NCBI RefSeq assembly: GCF_006334915.2
Contig: NZ_VDMA02000008.1
Location: forward strand, 62,001 to 126,000
DNA length: 64,000 nucleotides
Reading direction: 5' to 3'
Origin: Microbispora catharanthi
GTDB lineage: Bacteria > Actinomycetota > Actinomycetes > Streptosporangiales > Streptosporangiaceae
The position numbers and the translations under genes were made by a program. This document shows positions 34,488-45,141 of the stretch, piece after piece; within the stretch, counting starts at the first letter, position 1, and each line of letters opens with the position of its first letter. Under the pieces are notes generated by a model, which worked only from the letters and a program-made list of their open reading frames with translations, was not told the DNA's origin and did not search any database.

Positions 34488-34850
34488 ATGTCCGACGATG
34501 CGGTGCGACGCGTTTTCCGATCAGTCGATTCGTTCGATCCTGAGGAGTTTGGGCGACTGCTGGCCGAGGATGCCACGCTGGTGTTCGGCAATGCCGAGCC
34601 GCTTGCGGGACGTGGGGCCATCGTCGCCGGTCTCCGGGACTTCTACTCCACCATCGGCGGCCTGCGGCACCGGGTCGTCCGGAACTGGCGGTTGGATGCC
34701 GACATCATCGCCGAGACCGAGGTGACCTACCGGAGGCTTGATGGCAAGGACGCAAGCGCCGTAGCCGTATCGATCTGGCGCACCCGCGACGACGGCCTGA
34801 TCTCGGACTACCGCATATTCGTCGATCTCGCCCCCGTCTACGCGACTTAG
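34488..34850 (+). CDS. SnoaL-like/NTF2-fold protein
   Basis: 120 residues from the ATG at 34488, with AGAAGGGA upstream. The cone-shaped NTF2 fold is suggested by FRSVDSFDPEEFGRLLAEDATLVFGN at the start and by alternating β-strands (VVRNWRLDADIIAETEVTY) to the end (YRIFVDLAPVY). Proteins of this class range from polyketide cyclases to stress proteins; no catalytic assignment is possible. It converges with the Cys-rich peptide gene, a strong hairpin lying between them. Confidence 0.7.
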   Translation: MSDDAVRRVFRSVDSFDPEEFGRLLAEDATLVFGNAEPLAGRGAIVAGLRDFYSTIGGLRHRVVRNWRLDADIIAETEVTYRRLDGKDASAVAVSIWRTRDDGLISDYRIFVDLAPVYAT

Positions 34851-34935: not shown

Positions 34936-34965
34936 GGCTCCGGCGAGCCGTGGCTCGCCGGAGCC
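34936..34965. terminator. Bidirectional terminator hairpin
   Basis: GGCTCCGGCGAG-N6-CTCGCCGGAGCC gives a perfect 12-bp GC-rich stem between the 3' ends of the SnoaL-like gene (+) and the Cys-rich peptide gene (-). There is no U-tract, as is common in high-GC actinobacteria. Confidence 0.7.
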
Positions 34966-35037: not shown

Positions 35038-35244
35038 TCAGTCGTCGCACTCGCAACCGTCGCAGCAGCAATCGGCACATCGGCAGCTACCGGACTGACT
35101 GCCGCTGCACTGACAGCTTCCGGCGCTGTGTACGGTCATGGCACTGGCGGGACTGGCGTAGGTGAGAGCGCCCAGACAGACAGCACTGCCGGCCAGAGCG
35201 GTGCTGGCCGCGATGCCGGCGATAGTGTTACGGAGTACAAGCAT
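35038..35244 (-). CDS. Secreted Cys-rich (metallothionein-like) peptide
   Basis: 68 residues. A Sec signal peptide covers ~35 residues (hydrophobic TIAGIAASTALAGSAVCLGAL, site after ASA). The ~33-residue mature part holds nine Cys in CxC and CCC clusters (CQC, CRC, CCCDGCEC) with acidic spacers. It has AAGGAG eight bases before the ATG, a strong terminator after it, and a CTACTA-N7-TAGTG site upstream. This supports a real gene that probably binds copper or another soft metal outside the cell. I know no named family, and the metal is inferred from context. Confidence 0.7.
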   Translation of the reverse strand: MLVLRNTIAGIAASTALAGSAVCLGALTYASPASAMTVHSAGSCQCSGSQSGSCRCADCCCDGCECDD

Positions 35245-35391
35245 CTCATTGTCTCCTTGATGGATTACCGAGAATTAGATGCGCACCGAAATGCCACTCG
35301 TAGACGTGAAGTGACCACTCCAGACGACTTATTGATTACCTCTCCGAAAATCCACAAACGGACATTCCGGCTATTTAGTAATCAATTGAAC

Positions 35392-35409
35392 CTACTATTA
35401 TTCTTAGTG
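35392..35409. promoter_or_regulatory. Copper-regulon operator candidate A (CTACTA-N7-TAGTG)
   Basis: One of five sites with the same geometry in this 10-kb block. It lies 148 bp upstream of the Cys-rich peptide gene, in an AT-rich stretch that is unusual for this genome. Confidence 0.55.
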
Positions 35410-35470
35410 GGCCTGTCCTGGCTCGGGTCGCTTTACGAGGGAGAGGAACCGTCGCCAGACACAAGGGGCG

Positions 35471-35488
35471 CTACTATCGGCGATAGAA
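35471..35488. promoter_or_regulatory. Copper-regulon operator candidate B (CTACTA-N7-TAGAA)
   Basis: It contains the perfect 13-bp dyad CTATCG-G-CGATAG (35474-35486) and lies 23 bp before the start of the DUF6153-type gene that precedes the multicopper oxidase. The TACTAT segment could also serve as a -10. Confidence 0.65.
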
Positions 35489-35510
35489 GGTATCGACCCT
35501 GGAGGACACG

Positions 35511-35930
35511 ATGGCGGCCCGGGGACCAGTAGCGGCGCTTCTCCGCGCGATGCTGCTGATGATCCTCGTGACAGGCGTGGCCGCCATGCACACGCTCGGG
35601 CATGAGCACGATGGCCCCGGCGCGATGTCGATGTCAGCGGCCATGACGACGCATACGGCCGACGTCGGGCTTGCTACCCCGCATCACAGTTCCTCCGGCA
35701 GCGACTCGTCCACGCACAACGCCGGCTCCCACTCGCCGTTCGATCCGAGCACGGTGTGTCTTGCGATCCTGTCGGCTCTGGGCCTGGCCTTGGGACTGCC
35801 GCTGTTCCTGACCCGTATGGGAGCGGAGGAAGCGGCCAGGCCCGGCCGGCTGTCGATCGGCCGATTCTCCGTTCCCGACCTGCCGCCGTTATCCGTCGTC
35901 CTCACGCGTGTGGTGGTGCTTCGGAACTGA
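35511..35930 (+). CDS. DUF6153-type small membrane protein
   Basis: 139 residues from an ATG with GGAGG five bases upstream. An N-terminal hydrophobic segment (AMLLMILVTGVAAMHTLGH), a His/Met-rich middle with many H and M residues, a second membrane helix (LAILSALGLALGLPLFL) and a C-terminal PPLSVVLTRVVVLRN match the DUF6153 layout. Such proteins commonly sit beside DUF305 and copper genes; the His/Met richness suits copper binding outside the membrane. It shares a promoter region with the Cys-rich peptide and precedes the multicopper oxidase by 73 bp. Confidence 0.65.
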   Translation: MAARGPVAALLRAMLLMILVTGVAAMHTLGHEHDGPGAMSMSAAMTTHTADVGLATPHHSSSGSDSSTHNAGSHSPFDPSTVCLAILSALGLALGLPLFLTRMGAEEAARPGRLSIGRFSVPDLPPLSVVLTRVVVLRN

Positions 35931-36003: not shown

Positions 36004-36585
36004 ATGTCTTCGTTCGATCGGCGTTCCTTCCTGCGCGGCGGCCTGCTGGTCGCCGCCGGCGCCGCTGTTTCCGCCTGCAGTGGCACGGCGGTGAGCACGG
36101 CCGGCGTCCCGGCCTTCGTCGGGCCCTCGGCCGAGCAGGTGCGGGCCGCGGAAGCGGCACGCCACCCCGGCGCGGTCCGTGACGTCGTCCTGACCGCTCA
36201 GCGAGCACTGGTGGACCTGGGCGGGAAGGTGGTCGACACCTGGTCCTACGACGGCCGCGTTCCCGGTGCTCAGATCCGCGTCAAAGCGGGGGAGGTCGTC
36301 AGGGCCCGGATGGTCAACCGGCTTCCGGCCGACACCAGCGTGCACTGGCATGGCCTGGCTCTGCGCAACGACGCCGACGGCGTCCCCGGCGTCACGCAGC
36401 CGCCCATCGGGGCCGGTGCGGAGTTCACCTATGAATTCACCGCGCCCACCCCCGGGACCTACTGGTTCCACCCGCACTCCGGCCCGCAGCTCGACCGCGG
36501 TCTGTACGCGCCGCTGATCGTCGAGGATCCCCACGAGCCGCTGTCGACACCGCCTTCCGCGTCGCGCTCGGCGGCCATCGGATGA
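36004..36585 (+). pseudogene. Multicopper oxidase, N-terminal part (frame broken)
   Basis: 193 residues from an ATG with GAGG upstream. A twin-arginine signal (RRSFLRGG) ends in a possible lipobox (VSAC). The first cupredoxin domain is intact with the copper ligands HWHG and FHPHSG, up to LIVEDPHEP. The frame then runs into a short unrelated tail and stops. The usual second cupredoxin domain is missing, and the downstream residues continue in another frame. The stop overlaps (ATGA) the start of the C-terminal part. It is probably a deleted and frameshifted gene, though two coupled chains are conceivable. Confidence 0.8.
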
Positions 36586-37214
36586 GCGTCACCCACACCG
36601 ACGGCTTCCCCATCCAACCTGCGCCGACCGACGCGCTGCTGATCGGCATGGGGGAGCGCTACGACGTGCTGGTGACCCTCAAGGACGGCGTGTTCCCGCT
36701 GGTCGCCGCCGCCGAGGGTAAGAACGGCGCCGCCCGCGCGCTGGTCCGAACCTCCACAACGGGCCGGGCTCCTGACATCGACGTGCGGCCGCGAGAGCTG
36801 AAGGGCGGGATCCTCCGCTATGACGAGCTCCGTCCCGCGCAGAGTGTGAGGTTGCCGTCGAAGGCCGTCGACCGGACCATCCGATTGGAGCTGACCGGCA
36901 GCATGATGGCCTACGACTGGGCCATCAACGGCAAGCCGTACGACCCGAAGACCGTCCTCCCCGTCCGCGCCGGGGAACGGGTCCGGCTGCAGTTCGTCAA
37001 CCGGTCCCTGATGTGGCATCCCATGCACCTGCACGGCCACACCTTCGCCCTGACCGCCAGCGGGATCCGCAAGGACACCGCCATTGTGCTGCCGAACAGC
37101 ACTGTCGAGGCGGACTTCGACGCCGACAATCCCGGCTTGTGGATGATCCACTGCCACAACGTCTACCACGCCGAGGTCGGCATGATGACCACCCTCGGCT
37201 ACCTCCAGGCCTGA
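36582..37214 (+). pseudogene. Multicopper oxidase, C-terminal part
   Basis: 210 residues from an ATG that overlaps the upstream stop. The frame is open back to about 36545, where DTAFRVALGGHRM, the end of domain 2 in normal enzymes, can be read. The third cupredoxin domain is complete: HPMHLHGH and HCHNVYHAEVGMM carry the type 1, 2 and 3 copper ligands. The deletion therefore removed roughly 100 codons between VEDPHEP and DTAFRV and shifted the frame. No Shine-Dalgarno or secretion signal precedes this ATG. Confidence 0.8.
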
Positions 37215-39589: not shown

Positions 39590-39607
39590 CTACTATCGAC
39601 GATAGGA
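39590..39607. promoter_or_regulatory. Copper-regulon operator candidate C (CTACTA-N7-TAGGA)
   Basis: It contains the perfect dyad CTATCG-A-CGATAG (39593-39605), 35 bp before the P-type ATPase start. The sequence is almost identical to site B at 35471-35488. Confidence 0.7.
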
Positions 39608-39641
39608 CTTTGGCTGACTCGCAGGTGCTGGAGATGACGCG

Positions 39642-42170
39642 GTGGTGAATGAGCTGGGTGCGTGGGATAGCGGTAAGGACCGGAGCACGGCGGTTCTCGA
39701 CGTCAGCGGACTGCACTGGGCCACGGAGCAGAACATCGTCGCCTCGCGGCTGGGCCGACGGCCGGGTGTTCTGGAGGTCGAGGTCAATCCGGTGGCCCAA
39801 ACGGCCACAGTGGTGTTCGACCCCTCTCGAACGTCCCTGGCTGAGTTGCGAGACTGGATCCGCGAATGCGGATACCACTGTGCCGGCCAGTCTGTTCCCT
39901 CCCATATTTGTGACCCCATGGCTGAGCCTGATCCACCCGCATCAGGTGGGACGAGCACTTCTGCCATCGACGACGTCGCCAAGCGGGTCGCGAGTCCGGG
40001 GCGCGATCACGCGACCATGGCCGGGCACGGCGCACACATGCACGCAGGCATGGGCGAATCCACGGCGTCGGGACACGAGGCGATTGCGCATGGCGGATAC
40101 GTGAAGCACGGCTCCGCAGGTCACGCCGAGGCGGCGATGTCCCCGCACGAGATGATGGGCCACGGCGGGCACGCCGGCATGTCGATGGCGGCGATGGTGG
40201 CCGACATGCGCAACCGCTTCCTTGTCGCACTGCTGTTCTCGATCCCGATCCTGATGTGGTCGCCGATCGGCACCGAGGTGTTCGGCCTGCACGTCCCGGT
40301 TCCGTTCGGGCTGCGGCAAGACGTGTGGGCGCTGCTGCTCAGCCTCCCCGTGATCTTCTACTCCTGCTGGATCTTCTTCGACGGGGCCGTGCGGGCCCTG
40401 CGGGCGCGCACGCTCGACATGATGGTGCTGGTCGCCGTCGCGGTCGGAGCGGGCTGGCTCTATTCGGTGGTCGTGACGCTGACCGGCGGCGGTGAGGTCT
40501 TCTACGAGGCGGCCACCGTGCTGGCGGCCTTCGTGCTGCTGGGGCACTGGTTCGAGATGCGGGCCCGAGGCGGGGCCAACGACGCCATCCGTACTCTGCT
40601 CGATCTGGCGCCCCCGATGGCGATGGTCGTGCGCGACGGGACGCCGGTCGAAGTACCCACGGCCGAGGTGGTCGCCGGTGACCTGCTGCTGGTCCGTCCT
40701 GGAGCCAAGATTCCGGTCGACGGAGCCGTCGAGGAGGGCGAGAGCGAGGTCGACGAGTCCATGGTCACCGGCGAGAGCCTGCCGGTGCACAAGGAACCGG
40801 GCTCGGCCGTGGTCGGGGCGACGATCAACCGCAACGGCACCCTGCGCGTGCGGGCGACCAAGGTGGGCGCCGAAACCGCCCTCGCACAGATCGTGAAGCT
40901 CGTGCAGCAGGCGCAGAACTCCAAGGCGCCGGGCCAGCGGCTGGCCGACCGGGCCGCGTTCTGGCTGGTCCTCGTCGCGCTGATCGGCGGCGCGCTCACC
41001 TTCGCCGTATGGTTCCTGCTGGCCGGACGGCCGTTCGGAGTGGCGATCCTGTTCGCCATCACCGTCGTGGTCATCACCTGCCCGGACGCGCTCGGTCTCG
41101 CCACGCCCACGGCGATCATGGTGGGTACGGGTCTCGGTGCGAAGCGCGGCGTGCTGTTCAAGAACGCGATGGCTCTGGAGACCTCTGCACGCGTCCAGGT
41201 CGTGGTGCTGGACAAGACCGGCACGCTGACCAAGGGCGAGCCGGAGGTCACCGAAGTGATCGCGGATGGCGTGCCGGGGGATGAGCTGCTGCGGTTGGTG
41301 GCCGCGGTGGAGCGGGAGTCGGAGCATCCCTTGGCCCAGGCCGTCGTCCGGTACGCCGACGAGCAAGGTCTGGACGCCGTACGAGCGGAGCGGTTCGAAA
41401 ACATACCCGGCCACGGTGCCGTCGCCCAGGTGGCAGGACGCCGGGTGATGGTGGGCAACCGGAGACTGCTCGACCGTGAGGGCATCGCGCTGGGCGAACT
41501 GACACCGCAGCGCGACCAAGTTGCCTCAGGAGGTCGCACGGCCGTACTCGTGGCGATCGACGGCAGAGCGGCCGGAGTGATCGGGATCGCCGACGCTCCC
41601 CGGGAGACCTCCGCGGCGGCGGTGTCCGCGCTGCACGACCTCGGCGTCGAGGTGGTCATGCTCACCGGGGACAACGCCGCCACCGCTGAGCGGATCGCAC
41701 GCGCTCTGGGCATCGATACCGTGATCGCCGAAGTGCGGCCCGGGGACAAGGCGGCAAAGATCGCCGAACTGCAGGCCGACGGACGTACGGTGGCGATGGT
41801 CGGCGACGGCGTCAACGACGCCCCCGCACTCGCCCAGGCCGACCTCGGCATCGCGATCGGCGCGGGCACCGATGTGGCGATCGAGACCGCCGACCTCGTG
41901 CTGATGCGGTCCGATCCGCTGGACGTGCCGACCGCCCTGCGGATCGGCCGCGGAACGGTGCGCAAGATGCGGCAGAACCTGGGCTGGGCGATCGGCTACA
42001 ACACCTTGGCCCTGCCCATCGCTGCGGGTGTGTTCGAACCCGCCCTCGGCCTGGTGCTGCGCCCCGAGATCGCGGCGCTGTCGATGTCAGGCTCCAGCTT
42101 CATCGTGGCCATGAACGCCCTCGCGCTCAAGGGACTCAGGCTGCCCGCCGTGCAAGAGCGCAGTCACTGA
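39642..42170 (+). CDS. P1B-type heavy-metal (probably copper) translocating ATPase
   Basis: 842 residues from a GTG. Residues ~10-80 have an HMA-like fold but lack the CxxC metal site (GLHWATEQN instead). Residues ~115-185 are His/Met-rich, as in CopB. The pump core has the TGES motif in [15 protein letters not shown] (phosphorylated Asp, ~524), HPLAQ in the N domain and [10 protein letters not shown]. The membrane metal site in helix 6 reads CPD rather than CPC or CPH. GYN and MSGSS in later helices fit Cu+ pumps. It is preceded by operator C. Confidence 0.88.
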
Positions 42171-42208: not shown

Positions 42209-43144
42209 TCAGCAAGGAAGCGGCAGCATCATCACGCCCAGGGTCACCAGTACGGCGGGGACGCCGACCGCGGCGGCGACGGCGAACCACGACAGGGATC
42301 TGACGTGAGGCAGCCGTGGGGGCGTGTCTGGAGAGGTCAACCGGGCGATTCTCAGCCTGGCGATGTGCGTGGTGGCGGGGTTGACGGCCAGGGCACCCAC
42401 TGAGCACGACGCGACTGAGAGCTTCTGTAGCGCACCGATGAGCGGAGCCCTTCCATGGTGATGCGCCGCGTGGTCGTCGGCGGCCAGTTCCAGCAGGCCG
42501 GGCAGGGTGGTGTGCGCGAGCCGTAGCGTGCCGAGCCAGGGAACCGCGGCGCGCAGTGCGTCGGCCAGCATCAGGACCAGGTGGTGCCGCTGCCGCAGGT
42601 GCGCGCGCTCGTGGGCCAGCACCGCCTCCATCTCGGCCGGGCCGAGCCGGTCGAGTGCGCCTGTGGTCACGACGATGGGCCGTTCTCGCGCCGGCAGGCA
42701 GTAGATCATCGGCATGGGGTGCTCGAGCACGCGGACGTCCGGTGTCCCGGCGAGATCCCCCGCGACCACGTCGAGCATCTGCCGGTGCTCGCGGCGTTCC
42801 CGAACGGTCCGGACCACTCTGGGCACGGCCAGGCTAAGGGACGTGATCCCCGCCGCGAGAAGCAGAACTGTCCCGAGTGCCGCCGCCGGGGATATGGCAT
42901 GGCCGTCCTTCGGCAGGCAGTCGGCAAGCCAGTCGACGAGCCGGTGACCGGGAGTGGAGGGCCAGACGAGTGCGATAGCGGTCAGCCCGGTCAGGGCCAA
43001 CATGGTGCCGGTGAGGGCGGCGGTCCACAGTGCTACGGCGGTGCCGGGCAACCCTGCCGACCATCGCGCGCGCAGCAGCATGGGGCCCGCGAGGTGCCCG
43101 AGCAGGAACACGCATCCGGCCAAGGCGATGATTGCGGCGATCAT
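42209..43144 (-). CDS. M56 family membrane metallopeptidase (BlaR1-like)
   Basis: 311 residues with N-terminal membrane helices, the zinc motif VLAHERAHLRQRHH and LELAADDHAAHHHG with the third ligand region. The last gene of a minus-strand series DUF6153-DUF305-M56. A BlaI repressor gene lies across the shared intergenic region, so this is its likely sensor protease although the two are not adjacent. It converges with the P-type ATPase gene (38 bp gap). A hairpin at 43183-43213 separates it from DUF305. Confidence 0.82.
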   Translation of the reverse strand: MIAAIIALAGCVFLLGHLAGPMLLRARWSAGLPGTAVALWTAALTGTMLALTGLTAIALVWPSTPGHRLVDWLADCLPKDGHAISPAAALGTVLLLAAGITSLSLAVPRVVRTVRERREHRQMLDVVAGDLAGTPDVRVLEHPMPMIYCLPARERPIVVTTGALDRLGPAEMEAVLAHERAHLRQRHHLVLMLADALRAAVPWLGTLRLAHTTLPGLLELAADDHAAHHHGRAPLIGALQKLSVASCSVGALAVNPATTHIARLRIARLTSPDTPPRLPHVRSLSWFAVAAAVGVPAVLVTLGVMMLPLPC

Positions 43145-43222: not shown

Positions 43223-43843
43223 CTACCGCAGGAGCTTCTTCATGGTGGCGATCTCCGCGGACTGGCTGGTGATGATGGAGTCGGCCATCTGCTTGGCCGG
43301 TTCGTAGACGCCGGCTCCCTGCTCCTCCTTGGCCATGGTGACGGCGCCCTCATGGTGCTGGATCATCATCGTCAGGAACGCCTTGTCGAATGCGGCGCCC
43401 TTGAGGCCTTCGAGCTTCTTCATGTCCTCGCCGGACATCATGCCGGGCATGCCGTGGTCCATATGGTCCATCGGCATGCCGTCCTCGCCGGGGGCCTGAA
43501 CGCCCCAGCTTCGGAGCCAGCCGGTCATCGTCTGGATCTCGGGATCCTGGGCGGCCTCGATCTGCTTGGCCAGCTCCTTGACCTTGCTGCTGCCGGCGCG
43601 ATCCTCGGCCAGCTTCGCCATCTCAAGGGCCTGGCGGTGGTGCGGGATCATCATCTGCGCGAACCAGATGTCCCGGTCGTTGTGGTCCGCGGCCGGGCTG
43701 GTGGCAGGAGCCGGTGATTCGGCAGGCATCGCGGACATCGACGACGTGGCGGACATGTCGTGGGCCGCGGTGTCCGTGGAGCCGCAGGCACTGACGAGCA
43801 GACCGGCTCCGAGCAGGACGGCGGGAATGGCAAGTCGCTTCAT
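43223..43843 (-). CDS. DUF305 lipoprotein
   Basis: 206 residues. The N-terminal signal peptide ends with the lipobox VSAC near residue 20. The two DUF305 repeats FAQMMIPHHRQALEMAKL and FLTMMIQHHEGAVTMAKE carry the paired His and Met residues thought to bind copper, and the linker is Met/His-rich (DGMPMDHMDHGMPGMM). DUF305 proteins are frequently found with copper resistance genes. It would be anchored outside the membrane. It lies downstream of the second DUF6153-type gene. Confidence 0.85.
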   Translation of the reverse strand: MKRLAIPAVLLGAGLLVSACGSTDTAAHDMSATSSMSAMPAESPAPATSPAADHNDRDIWFAQMMIPHHRQALEMAKLAEDRAGSSKVKELAKQIEAAQDPEIQTMTGWLRSWGVQAPGEDGMPMDHMDHGMPGMMSGEDMKKLEGLKGAAFDKAFLTMMIQHHEGAVTMAKEEQGAGVYEPAKQMADSIITSQSAEIATMKKLLR

Positions 43844-43919: not shown

Positions 43920-44357
43920 CTACACCCGGATCACACAGAGTTGCGCGAGGGTCGGCCCTCTGGGACGGGCGGTGGGCCCGCGGGGGAGGAACGACTGCAG
44001 GAACAGCCGGATCGGCGGGGCACCGAAGCGGCCTGCACCCACTATGACGAGGAGAAGTAGTAGGACCGACCCGGCCAGGAGGAGGGCGAGACAGACCTGG
44101 CCGCCGCCGTGACCCTGGTGGGGAGAGCTGGGTTCGTCACCGTGCCGGTCGTGGGGCCCCGCCATCGGCATCGCCGAGTGATCGCTTTCAGCGGAGTGCA
44201 GGGCCAGGACGCTAGGAGTGGGAAGAGGTCCAGGTGAGGGCTGCAGCCCGTGCATGGCGAGCAGGCCGCACAGGACGGCGGCGAGCAGGAGCAGTCCGCT
44301 CAAGGAAGCGAGCCTGCGCGCCACACCGTCCGTAGTCACAGTGGACACATTACCCAT
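43920..44357 (-). CDS. DUF6153-type membrane protein
   Basis: 145 residues from the ATG at 44357; the frame extends upstream, but the helix and operator positions favour this start. It has a first helix (LSGLLLLAAVLCGLLAMHGL), a His-rich external loop (HSAMPMAGPHDRHGDE), a second helix (LALLLAGSVLLLLLVIVGAG) and the ending PTLAQLCVIRV. It is a paralogue in layout of the protein at 35511-35930. It heads the minus-strand unit with DUF305, and operator D lies 50 bp upstream. Confidence 0.6.
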   Translation of the reverse strand: MGNVSTVTTDGVARRLASLSGLLLLAAVLCGLLAMHGLQPSPGPLPTPSVLALHSAESDHSAMPMAGPHDRHGDEPSSPHQGHGGGQVCLALLLAGSVLLLLLVIVGAGRFGAPPIRLFLQSFLPRGPTARPRGPTLAQLCVIRV

Positions 44358-44406: not shown

Positions 44407-44424
44407 CTACTACCCGCACTAGTG
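44407..44424. promoter_or_regulatory. Copper-regulon operator candidate D (CTACTA-N7-TAGTG)
   Basis: Also readable as the wider dyad CACTA-N10-TAGTG. It lies 50 bp upstream of the DUF6153-DUF305 unit. Confidence 0.5.
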
Positions 44425-44743
44425 ACCGTGATGGCCTCCGGCGATGACCGAGACCGGAGGCAAAAGAAGCGAGCGATGGTGCCGTCTGGAGGACAGGAGA
44501 TCGGGAGACATCCGATAGCGCGATTGCCACGTACGCCTTGAACCACCACCTCGCTCTGCAGCGGGCTCGGCCATGTGGCGGCAGGTCGACGGTTGTGGGG
44601 CAAAACAGGGATACTGTGATCGTCAGCGCCGGAGGAGACACCGCGGATCCCGTCGCGGCATCCCGAGGGCAGTGGTTGATCGACTGTCACTGCCTACGAC
44701 AGGAGTCCGGAGTTGGTGACCGCTTTGTCGCGTCAGGCCTGAT

Positions 44744-44761
44744 CTACTACCTTACCTAGGA
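44744..44761. promoter_or_regulatory. Copper-regulon operator candidate E (CTACTA-N7-TAGGA)
   Basis: It lies 21 bp before the BlaI/CopY-family gene, fitting autoregulation. Its flanks (TCTACTA...TAGGA) match site C exactly at the arms. Confidence 0.55.
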
Positions 44762-44781
44762 AGGACGAAGGCGGAGGAGAC

Positions 44782-45141
44782 GTGCGCGAGTTCGGCAAGC
44801 TCGAGGCAGCGGTGATGGACCGCGTCTGGGCTCTCGGCCGGCCCGTGTCCGTACGCGAGGTGCTCACCGAGCTCCAGAAGAGCCGCGACATCGCCTACAC
44901 CACGGTGATGACGGTGATGGACACCCTGCACGGCAAGGGCTGGCTACGCCGCCGGTTGGAGGGCCGCGCCTACAGTTACGAGGCTGTGGCCTCGCGCGAG
45001 GCGTACACGGCTCGTCTGATGCGCGGAGCGCTGGCGACGAGCAACAACCAGGCGGCGGCGTTCGTCCACTTCCTCGCCGAGCTCACCCCTACGGAGGCGG
45101 AGGCGCTTCGGCAGGCGTTGAAGATCGTGCCCCCGAGCTGA
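44782..45141 (+). CDS. BlaI/MecI/CopY family repressor, probable regulator of the copper block
   Basis: 119 residues from a GTG with GGAGGAG upstream. The winged helix (LEAAVMDRVWALGRPVSVREV, AYTTVMTVMDTLHGKGWLRR) is followed by a C-terminal helix pair. It lacks the CxC clusters of enterococcal CopY, so metal would be sensed indirectly, perhaps through the M56 protease at 42209-43144. Its own promoter carries site E. It is a second BlaI in this window; the other, at 15974-16366, has operators with a 6-bp rather than 7-bp spacer. Confidence 0.85.
   Translation: MREFGKLEAAVMDRVWALGRPVSVREVLTELQKSRDIAYTTVMTVMDTLHGKGWLRRRLEGRAYSYEAVASREAYTARLMRGALATSNNQAAAFVHFLAELTPTEAEALRQALKIVPPS

Follow-up and report, generated by a model that had tools for sequence, protein, structure and literature searches.

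The cysteine-rich gene

The window analysed here is a 64,000-nt stretch of the soil actinomycete Microbispora catharanthi (GCF_006334915.2, contig NZ_VDMA02000008.1, positions 62,001–126,000, forward strand). It holds a set of copper-related genes and, beside them on the minus strand, a short gene whose predicted product is rich in cysteine. The gene and its immediate surroundings are as follows:

34488–34850: SnoaL-like gene, convergent with the Cys-rich gene; the sole profile-supported gene downstream of it
34936–34965, minus: hairpin 3' of the Cys-rich gene, 13-bp stem, 4-nt loop, no U-run (folding)
35038–35244, minus: coding sequence of the putatively exported Cys-rich peptide, 68 codons (open reading frame, counterparts, pN/pS, whole-codon indels)
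35041–35139, minus: predicted mature peptide, 33 residues, 9 Cys, net charge -4; core C-x-C-x2-C-x-C-x2-C (C54–C64)
35140–35244, minus: predicted Sec-type signal peptide, 35 residues, ending in ASA, without a lipobox (V before C23); assigned from the sequence, a crude signal test by a script of our own and conservation in five sequences
35245–35391, minus: 5' leader of the Cys-rich gene, with no match to R1, the family leader model described below
35253–35258, minus: Shine–Dalgarno sequence AAGGAG, 8 nt 5' of the ATG

The product consists of a predicted signal part, MLVLRNTIAGIAASTALAGSAVCLGALTYASPASA, followed by a mature part, MTVHSAGSCQCSGSQSGSCRCADCCCDGCECDD. A sequence-only reading of the locus had proposed a 68-codon gene with a strong Shine–Dalgarno sequence, a Sec signal and a mature part of about 33 residues with nine Cys, all of which is borne out here, and had left out that the gene lies on the minus strand. 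Cysteine makes up more than one quarter of the mature peptide; a tenth Cys lies inside the signal peptide, where there is no lipobox: every sequence with this Cys has Val or Leu in front of it. A six-frame scan for open reading frames combining a signal peptide with at least five Cys at a density of at least 18% returned this one alone in the window, and 30 order-2 Markov windows gave no hit. Extended to loci totalling 952,269 bases (overlapping copies included), the same scan picked out the window gene and its four counterparts, and beyond these just a single unrelated open reading frame, seen twice because its locus is represented by two copies (L037/L098). The open reading frame at 35038–35244 is a real gene and not a chance occurrence.

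The peptide resembles a metallothionein in being small, with dense Cys in CxC, CC and CxxC clusters (9 of 33 residues). No family of any kind in Pfam or NCBIfam matched it at E ≤ 1, nor did any PDB entry at E ≤ 10, in searches where short Cys-rich queries match with difficulty; as the known profiles give no match, we use the label 'metallothionein-like' rather than metallothionein. A bacterial metallothionein is also expected in the cytosol, whereas this peptide has a predicted signal peptide with an ASA site. Among the papers listed in the literature searches, which covered open-licence papers only, none was seen to report the peptide or its secreted-protein family.

The terminator with a 12-bp stem claimed in the sequence-only reading stands as a hairpin, a similar one being present in M. 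corallina, but its stem has 13 bp, it lacks a U-run, and scans for consensus promoters and terminators found no match. Further minus-strand open reading frames lie downstream, without profile support. Upstream, the stretch from the operator to the ATG (170 columns) has a mean column identity of 94% in three Microbispora genomes, against synonymous differences of 13–31% in the gene itself among the three closest genomes, so the leader probably has a function of its own.

A well-conserved leader, together with a small, Sec-signalled product in a copper locus, would also suit a CutF-like nascent-chain copper sensor, in which export of a small Cys protein controls the translation of a copper gene lying downstream. 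CutF-like proteins are described, in the part of the source cited (PMC9973294), as small exported proteins with metal-binding motifs, often encoded 5' of metal genes; two features define them, a proline motif among the final 15 residues and a following gene on the same strand no more than 1000 nt away. The window gene departs from them on both counts: there is no proline in the mature part, let alone such a motif, and the hairpin and the convergent SnoaL-like gene follow it in place of a supported same-strand gene. We regard a sensor of this kind as very improbable.

Operator and copper locus

The promoter of the Cys-rich gene contains a BlaI-type operator, CTACTA-N7-TAGTAG, which recurs among the neighbouring copper genes (operators are listed without strand):

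35392–35410: operator of the Cys-rich gene, 1 mismatch
35471–35489: operator before the DUF6153 and multicopper oxidase genes, 1 mismatch
35511–35930, plus: DUF6153 protein, divergent from the Cys-rich gene; weak resemblance to LpqS, below cut-off
36004–37214, plus: multicopper oxidase, broken into two overlapping open reading frames and lacking 361 bp of the copy in the second copper locus
39590–39608: operator before the copper ATPase gene, 2 mismatches
39642–42170, plus: copper-translocating P-type ATPase
42209–43144, minus: M48 peptidase (M56 match below cut-off), candidate BlaR1-like partner
43223–43843, minus: DUF305/CopM family protein
43920–44357, minus: second DUF6153 protein; likely start at 44357, picked by eye
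44407–44425: operator before the second DUF6153 gene, 2 mismatches
44744–44762: operator before blaI, 2 mismatches
44782–45141, plus: BlaI-type repressor (Pfam Penicillinase_R; CopY model below cut-off), without a single Cys

A MarR-like and an MFS-like gene, as we take them to be, also lie between the genes of this locus. CopY bears Cys; the BlaI of the window, unlike it, has none, so it probably senses metal indirectly.

The sequence-only reading had noted an operator common to the copper genes, and the counts agree. All five window sites with up to two mismatches precede copper-locus genes, against an expected mean of 0.075 (40 order-1 Markov windows). Genome-wide, four distinct sites have at most one mismatch, against 55 for a reversed control pattern; two flank the Cys-rich and DUF6153 genes, one lies in the second copper locus and one inside a 111-codon open reading frame elsewhere. 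Four copper loci (68 kb) together contain 20 sites, overlapping ones counted apart, and ten loci in which tblastn detects none of the window's copper genes (194 kb) contain one. The operator thereby appears to tie the Cys-rich gene of the window to copper genes, and metal-induced expression is predicted from its sharing.

That regulatory tie also bears on the choice of metal. Clusters of Cys bind many soft metals and the neighbours of the peptide gene vary between genomes, as would suit an exported metallothionein-like peptide that is a broad chelator or whose main ligand is Zn, Cd or Ag. In the window, however, the operator and its neighbours comprise a copper ATPase, a multicopper oxidase, CopM and DUF6153, and we consider a broad chelator, or a soft metal other than copper as the main ligand, rather unlikely.

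The second copper locus of the same genome (L051, G000:C5:1–16000) encodes a BlaI 92% identical to that of the window, with M56, DUF305, DUF6153 and oxidase genes, and lacks the Cys-rich peptide. Its contig starts with 160 bp that differ by one base from window positions 36387–36546, whereas the next 680 aligned bases are only 82% identical, so an assembly fault or a recent exchange may be involved at this end. The peptide was likewise not found in S. thailandensis's BlaI locus or in 18 BlaI loci from other genera, so across these 20 loci a BlaI copper locus does not require it. Operator sites in the seven of the 20 that were scanned number 7 in L051, 1 in L052, 10 in L053, 11 in L055, 5 in L059, 4 in L062 and 2 in L065.

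Counterparts, wider family and leader RNA

Searching 341 genomes with the single protein gave matches at E ≤ 0.001 in 54, and a five-row profile (A1) matched 108 of 345 genomes at the same threshold. All the matches listed belong to the same family, and among them the alignment is mostly confined to the signal peptide. Five genes stand out at 85–113 bits, the next score being 55.5: the window gene, its close counterparts in Microbispora rosea ATCC 12950 and M. hainanensis DSM 45428, and its distant counterparts in M. corallina NBRC 16416 and Sphaerimonospora thailandensis NBRC 107569. A scan of organism-named genomes with the single protein found no match; with the five-row alignment it returned five loci, namely the four peptide counterparts and one wider-family locus.

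Homologues with conserved Cys spacing, on which the sequence-only reading had staked its case, do exist: C-x-C-x2-C-x-C-x2-C is kept in all five genes, in an alignment whose rows are also those of the profile. The mature parts of the three closest genes contain 9, 7 and 6 Cys, the M. hainanensis peptide stopping after the core with six; M. corallina has 8 and S. thailandensis 15. Pairwise pN/pS over the whole gene is 0.26, 0.33 and 0.35 among the three closest, and their differences in length are whole codons. These three genes are under purifying selection.

Four of the five genes adjoin copper genes or a repressor remnant. The M. corallina gene lies 3' of BlaI, DUF6153, DUF305 and protease genes and 5' of a DsbD/cupredoxin gene, and that of M. 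hainanensis is next to a BlaI remnant and a DUF4396 gene, neighbours that are not proven copper genes. In M. rosea (L038, G071:C21), the Cys-rich gene, DUF6153 and the beginning of the oxidase form a segment that runs opposite to its orientation in the window; one breakpoint falls within the oxidase gene. The operator is present with no mismatch in M. rosea and with one each in M. hainanensis and M. corallina.

The window BlaI finds matches at E ≤ 1e-38 in 83 of the 341 genomes searched. Copies at least 90% identical occur in four genomes (that of the window, twice, M. rosea, M. corallina and S. thailandensis), each of which also encodes the Cys-rich peptide. M. hainanensis, the remaining carrier, lacks a BlaI of this kind; the remnant adjoining its gene is frameshifted. 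Within the genus, counting the remnant as presence, the peptide is found in 4/4 genomes with the BlaI and a peptide-like score in 0/11 others (Fisher p 0.0007, kinship ignored). DUF6153 was of little help as a guide gene: it matched 4 of 296 genomes, and three short foreign loci had no open reading frame with at least four Cys at 8% density.

The exception is S. thailandensis, whose gene has no operator at up to two mismatches. Its 20-kb locus contains none of the copper genes of the window by tblastn, and its BlaI is on a separate contig. The 15-Cys member (L046, G211:C3) is near YcaO, TfuA and LuxR/weak ATP-grasp genes and presumably also ABC-transporter genes, possibly a peptide-modification cluster. 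The YcaO/TfuA genes are 4–6 kb away, with the LuxR/weak ATP-grasp protein between, as might be expected if the peptide were a RiPP precursor with a conserved leader and a variable Cys-rich core. Against such a precursor, the conserved part resembles a Sec signal with an AxA site, and no peptide-modifying enzyme is among the profile-identified proteins of the copper loci; we give this explanation very little weight.

Judged by profile A1 and the alignment, the window gene belongs, as a specialised member, to a broader family of short secreted Streptosporangiaceae proteins with a common signal peptide, a relationship that the sequence-only reading missed. Our family listing has 69 sequences, of which one (L057) is unrelated and several are redundant or incomplete. 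The mature parts vary greatly from subgroup to subgroup, being rich in Gly/Trp, Asn/Trp, His/Arg or Cys. At the loci examined, members that are not Cys-dense have only the signal peptide in common with the peptide and are therefore classed as wider family, not as counterparts. A copper role for the whole family was rejected: of the 66 members for which 200 nt or more of upstream sequence was available, four have the operator at up to three mismatches, all of them Cys-dense, and S. thailandensis reaches only three. Ten wider-family loci of 14–20 kb (L041–L050) have none of the window's copper genes by tblastn.

This family background lends something to a further alternative, an exported disulfide-bonded peptide acting as a redox buffer, a wall or spore-surface component or an antimicrobial. 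The wider family consists of predicted secreted proteins, those examined having no adjoining copper genes; the S. thailandensis copy has no copper context either, and the oxidising exterior favours disulfides. Yet mature Cys numbers that vary and are sometimes odd are ill-suited to a fixed disulfide fold and argue for metal ligands, and the operator links the window gene to copper. We think such a role rather unlikely.

Many 5' leaders of the family share boxes and two covarying hairpins over about 125 nt (L044:10055–10182, L047:9586–9713, L040:9328–9451, L041:9491–9613 and others). RNAalifold on mixed leaders predicted almost no structure, because the helices were misaligned, and the model R1 uses a hand-placed structure on seven close leaders. 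At E ≤ 1 it matches 95 times, across 45 sources. In these, 84.7% of positions assigned to pairs are paired (slid controls, 34.6–46.1%) and two-sided changes occur in 18/18 pairs, filling 214 cells compared with 79 in shuffled data, counts that lean towards structure because the alignment was fitted to it. At E ≤ 1e-5, R1 occurs in at least 66 of 338 Streptosporangiaceae genomes; in a 286-genome sample of the phylum it was found only in the window's own genome, a lower bound given strict filters and few candidates scored. Rfam returned nothing at gathering score in five loci, and gave no more than sub-threshold matches in the window stretch; R1 thus adds a candidate leader RNA without an Rfam match here.

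At the window gene the best R1 score is 6.4 bits, on the wrong strand. The leader of the Cys-rich gene scores 47.6 bits in M. corallina and a weak 18.8 bits in S. thailandensis, so M. corallina combines R1 with the operator, S. thailandensis has a weak R1 and no operator, and the window has the operator and no R1. From these three states we infer that the leader may first have been kept, the operator then gained and the leader later lost.

A proposed extracellular copper trap

We propose, with a probability of roughly 0.6, that the product of the Cys-rich gene is induced by copper, exported and works as a metallothionein-like trap for Cu(I). The gene, its conservation, signal sequence, operator, context and family origin are read from the sequence. 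A peptide of over one-quarter Cys, apparently exported and encoded in a copper cluster, probably takes up copper outside the cell.

Repressor binding, induction, export, Cu(I) binding and protection might proceed as follows. At low copper, a BlaI-type repressor on CTACTA-N7-TAGTAG would silence the Cys-rich gene and, in the same way, the copper ATPase, DUF6153, CopM-like and blaI genes. A surplus of copper would relieve repression, perhaps through the adjacent M48/M56-like protease, a route suggested by the lack of a Cys for metal binding in BlaI; the candidacy of the protease rests on analogy with BlaR1. The peptide would leave by Sec and shed its 35-residue signal, and thiolates of the CxCxxCxCxxC core would trap Cu(I) on the outside of the membrane or in the wall, at the point where it emerges from the ATPase, and thereby keep it from re-entering or reacting. 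The peptide itself would derive from the Streptosporangiaceae family of short secreted proteins, having retained the signal peptide. Counting against a Cu(I) trap, oxidation outside an aerobic cell may reach the thiols before any Cu(I) does.

The extracellular metallothionein of the sequence-only reading is thus favoured by the gene, export signal, Cys density and spacing, operator and counterparts, in the form of a metallothionein-like peptide only. Gram-positive cells have no periplasm in which to handle copper that has been pumped out. If the proposed trap is real, a small exported thiol peptide produced alongside the pump would explain in a simple way what becomes of that copper.

The nearest known arrangement is the mycobacterial RicR regulon, which combines the metallothionein MymT, the multicopper oxidase MmcO and LpqS; MymT is drawn there as sequestering Cu(I) intracellularly (PMC10470581, part of the source). 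MymT too was initially a non-annotated open reading frame (PMC7558416, excerpt). Like MymT, the window peptide is a very small Cys-rich peptide encoded with a multicopper oxidase in a copper locus; unlike MymT, it has a predicted Sec signal and an operator of BlaI rather than RicR type. In the excerpt cited, metallothioneins are placed in the cytosol and SmtA is a small Cys-cluster metallothionein of cyanobacteria (PMC7558416); the window peptide is likewise a small Cys-cluster protein, and differs in its export signal and in matching no metallothionein profile. Csp1-type copper storage proteins of Methylosinus are exported, Cys-rich, Cu(I)-binding four-helix bundles with a Tat signal (PMC7558416, same excerpt), so the rarity that the sequence-only reading claimed for an exported Cys-rich copper peptide holds less strictly than stated. 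The window peptide is also Cys-rich with an export signal, but the signal is of Sec type without a twin arginine, and a mature part of 33 residues is too short for a four-helix bundle. Copper protection is further described for NGO1701 of Neisseria, which we group with the Csp1-type proteins (PMC12510493, part of the source).

A broader and more tentative idea, to which we would give somewhat less than even odds, is that a portable cassette of structured leader RNA and one signal peptide fronts varied short peptides, and that one of these was recruited into copper loci, where it acquired a BlaI operator and, in certain species, a rewritten leader, and became an extracellular metallothionein. 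To our knowledge, such a peptide would be the first Sec-exported metallothionein tied to a bacterial copper regulon. A signal peptide and leader conserved over many paralogues would also offer a natural series for following how new functions of secreted peptides originate.

The window's own genome contains a tandem cluster of family members spaced about 1.1–1.3 kb apart (L049, G000:C15:65001–85000). Their mature parts are Asn/Trp-rich or Lys/Asn-rich; the cluster has five R1 leaders, and a sixth R1 lies on contig C12.
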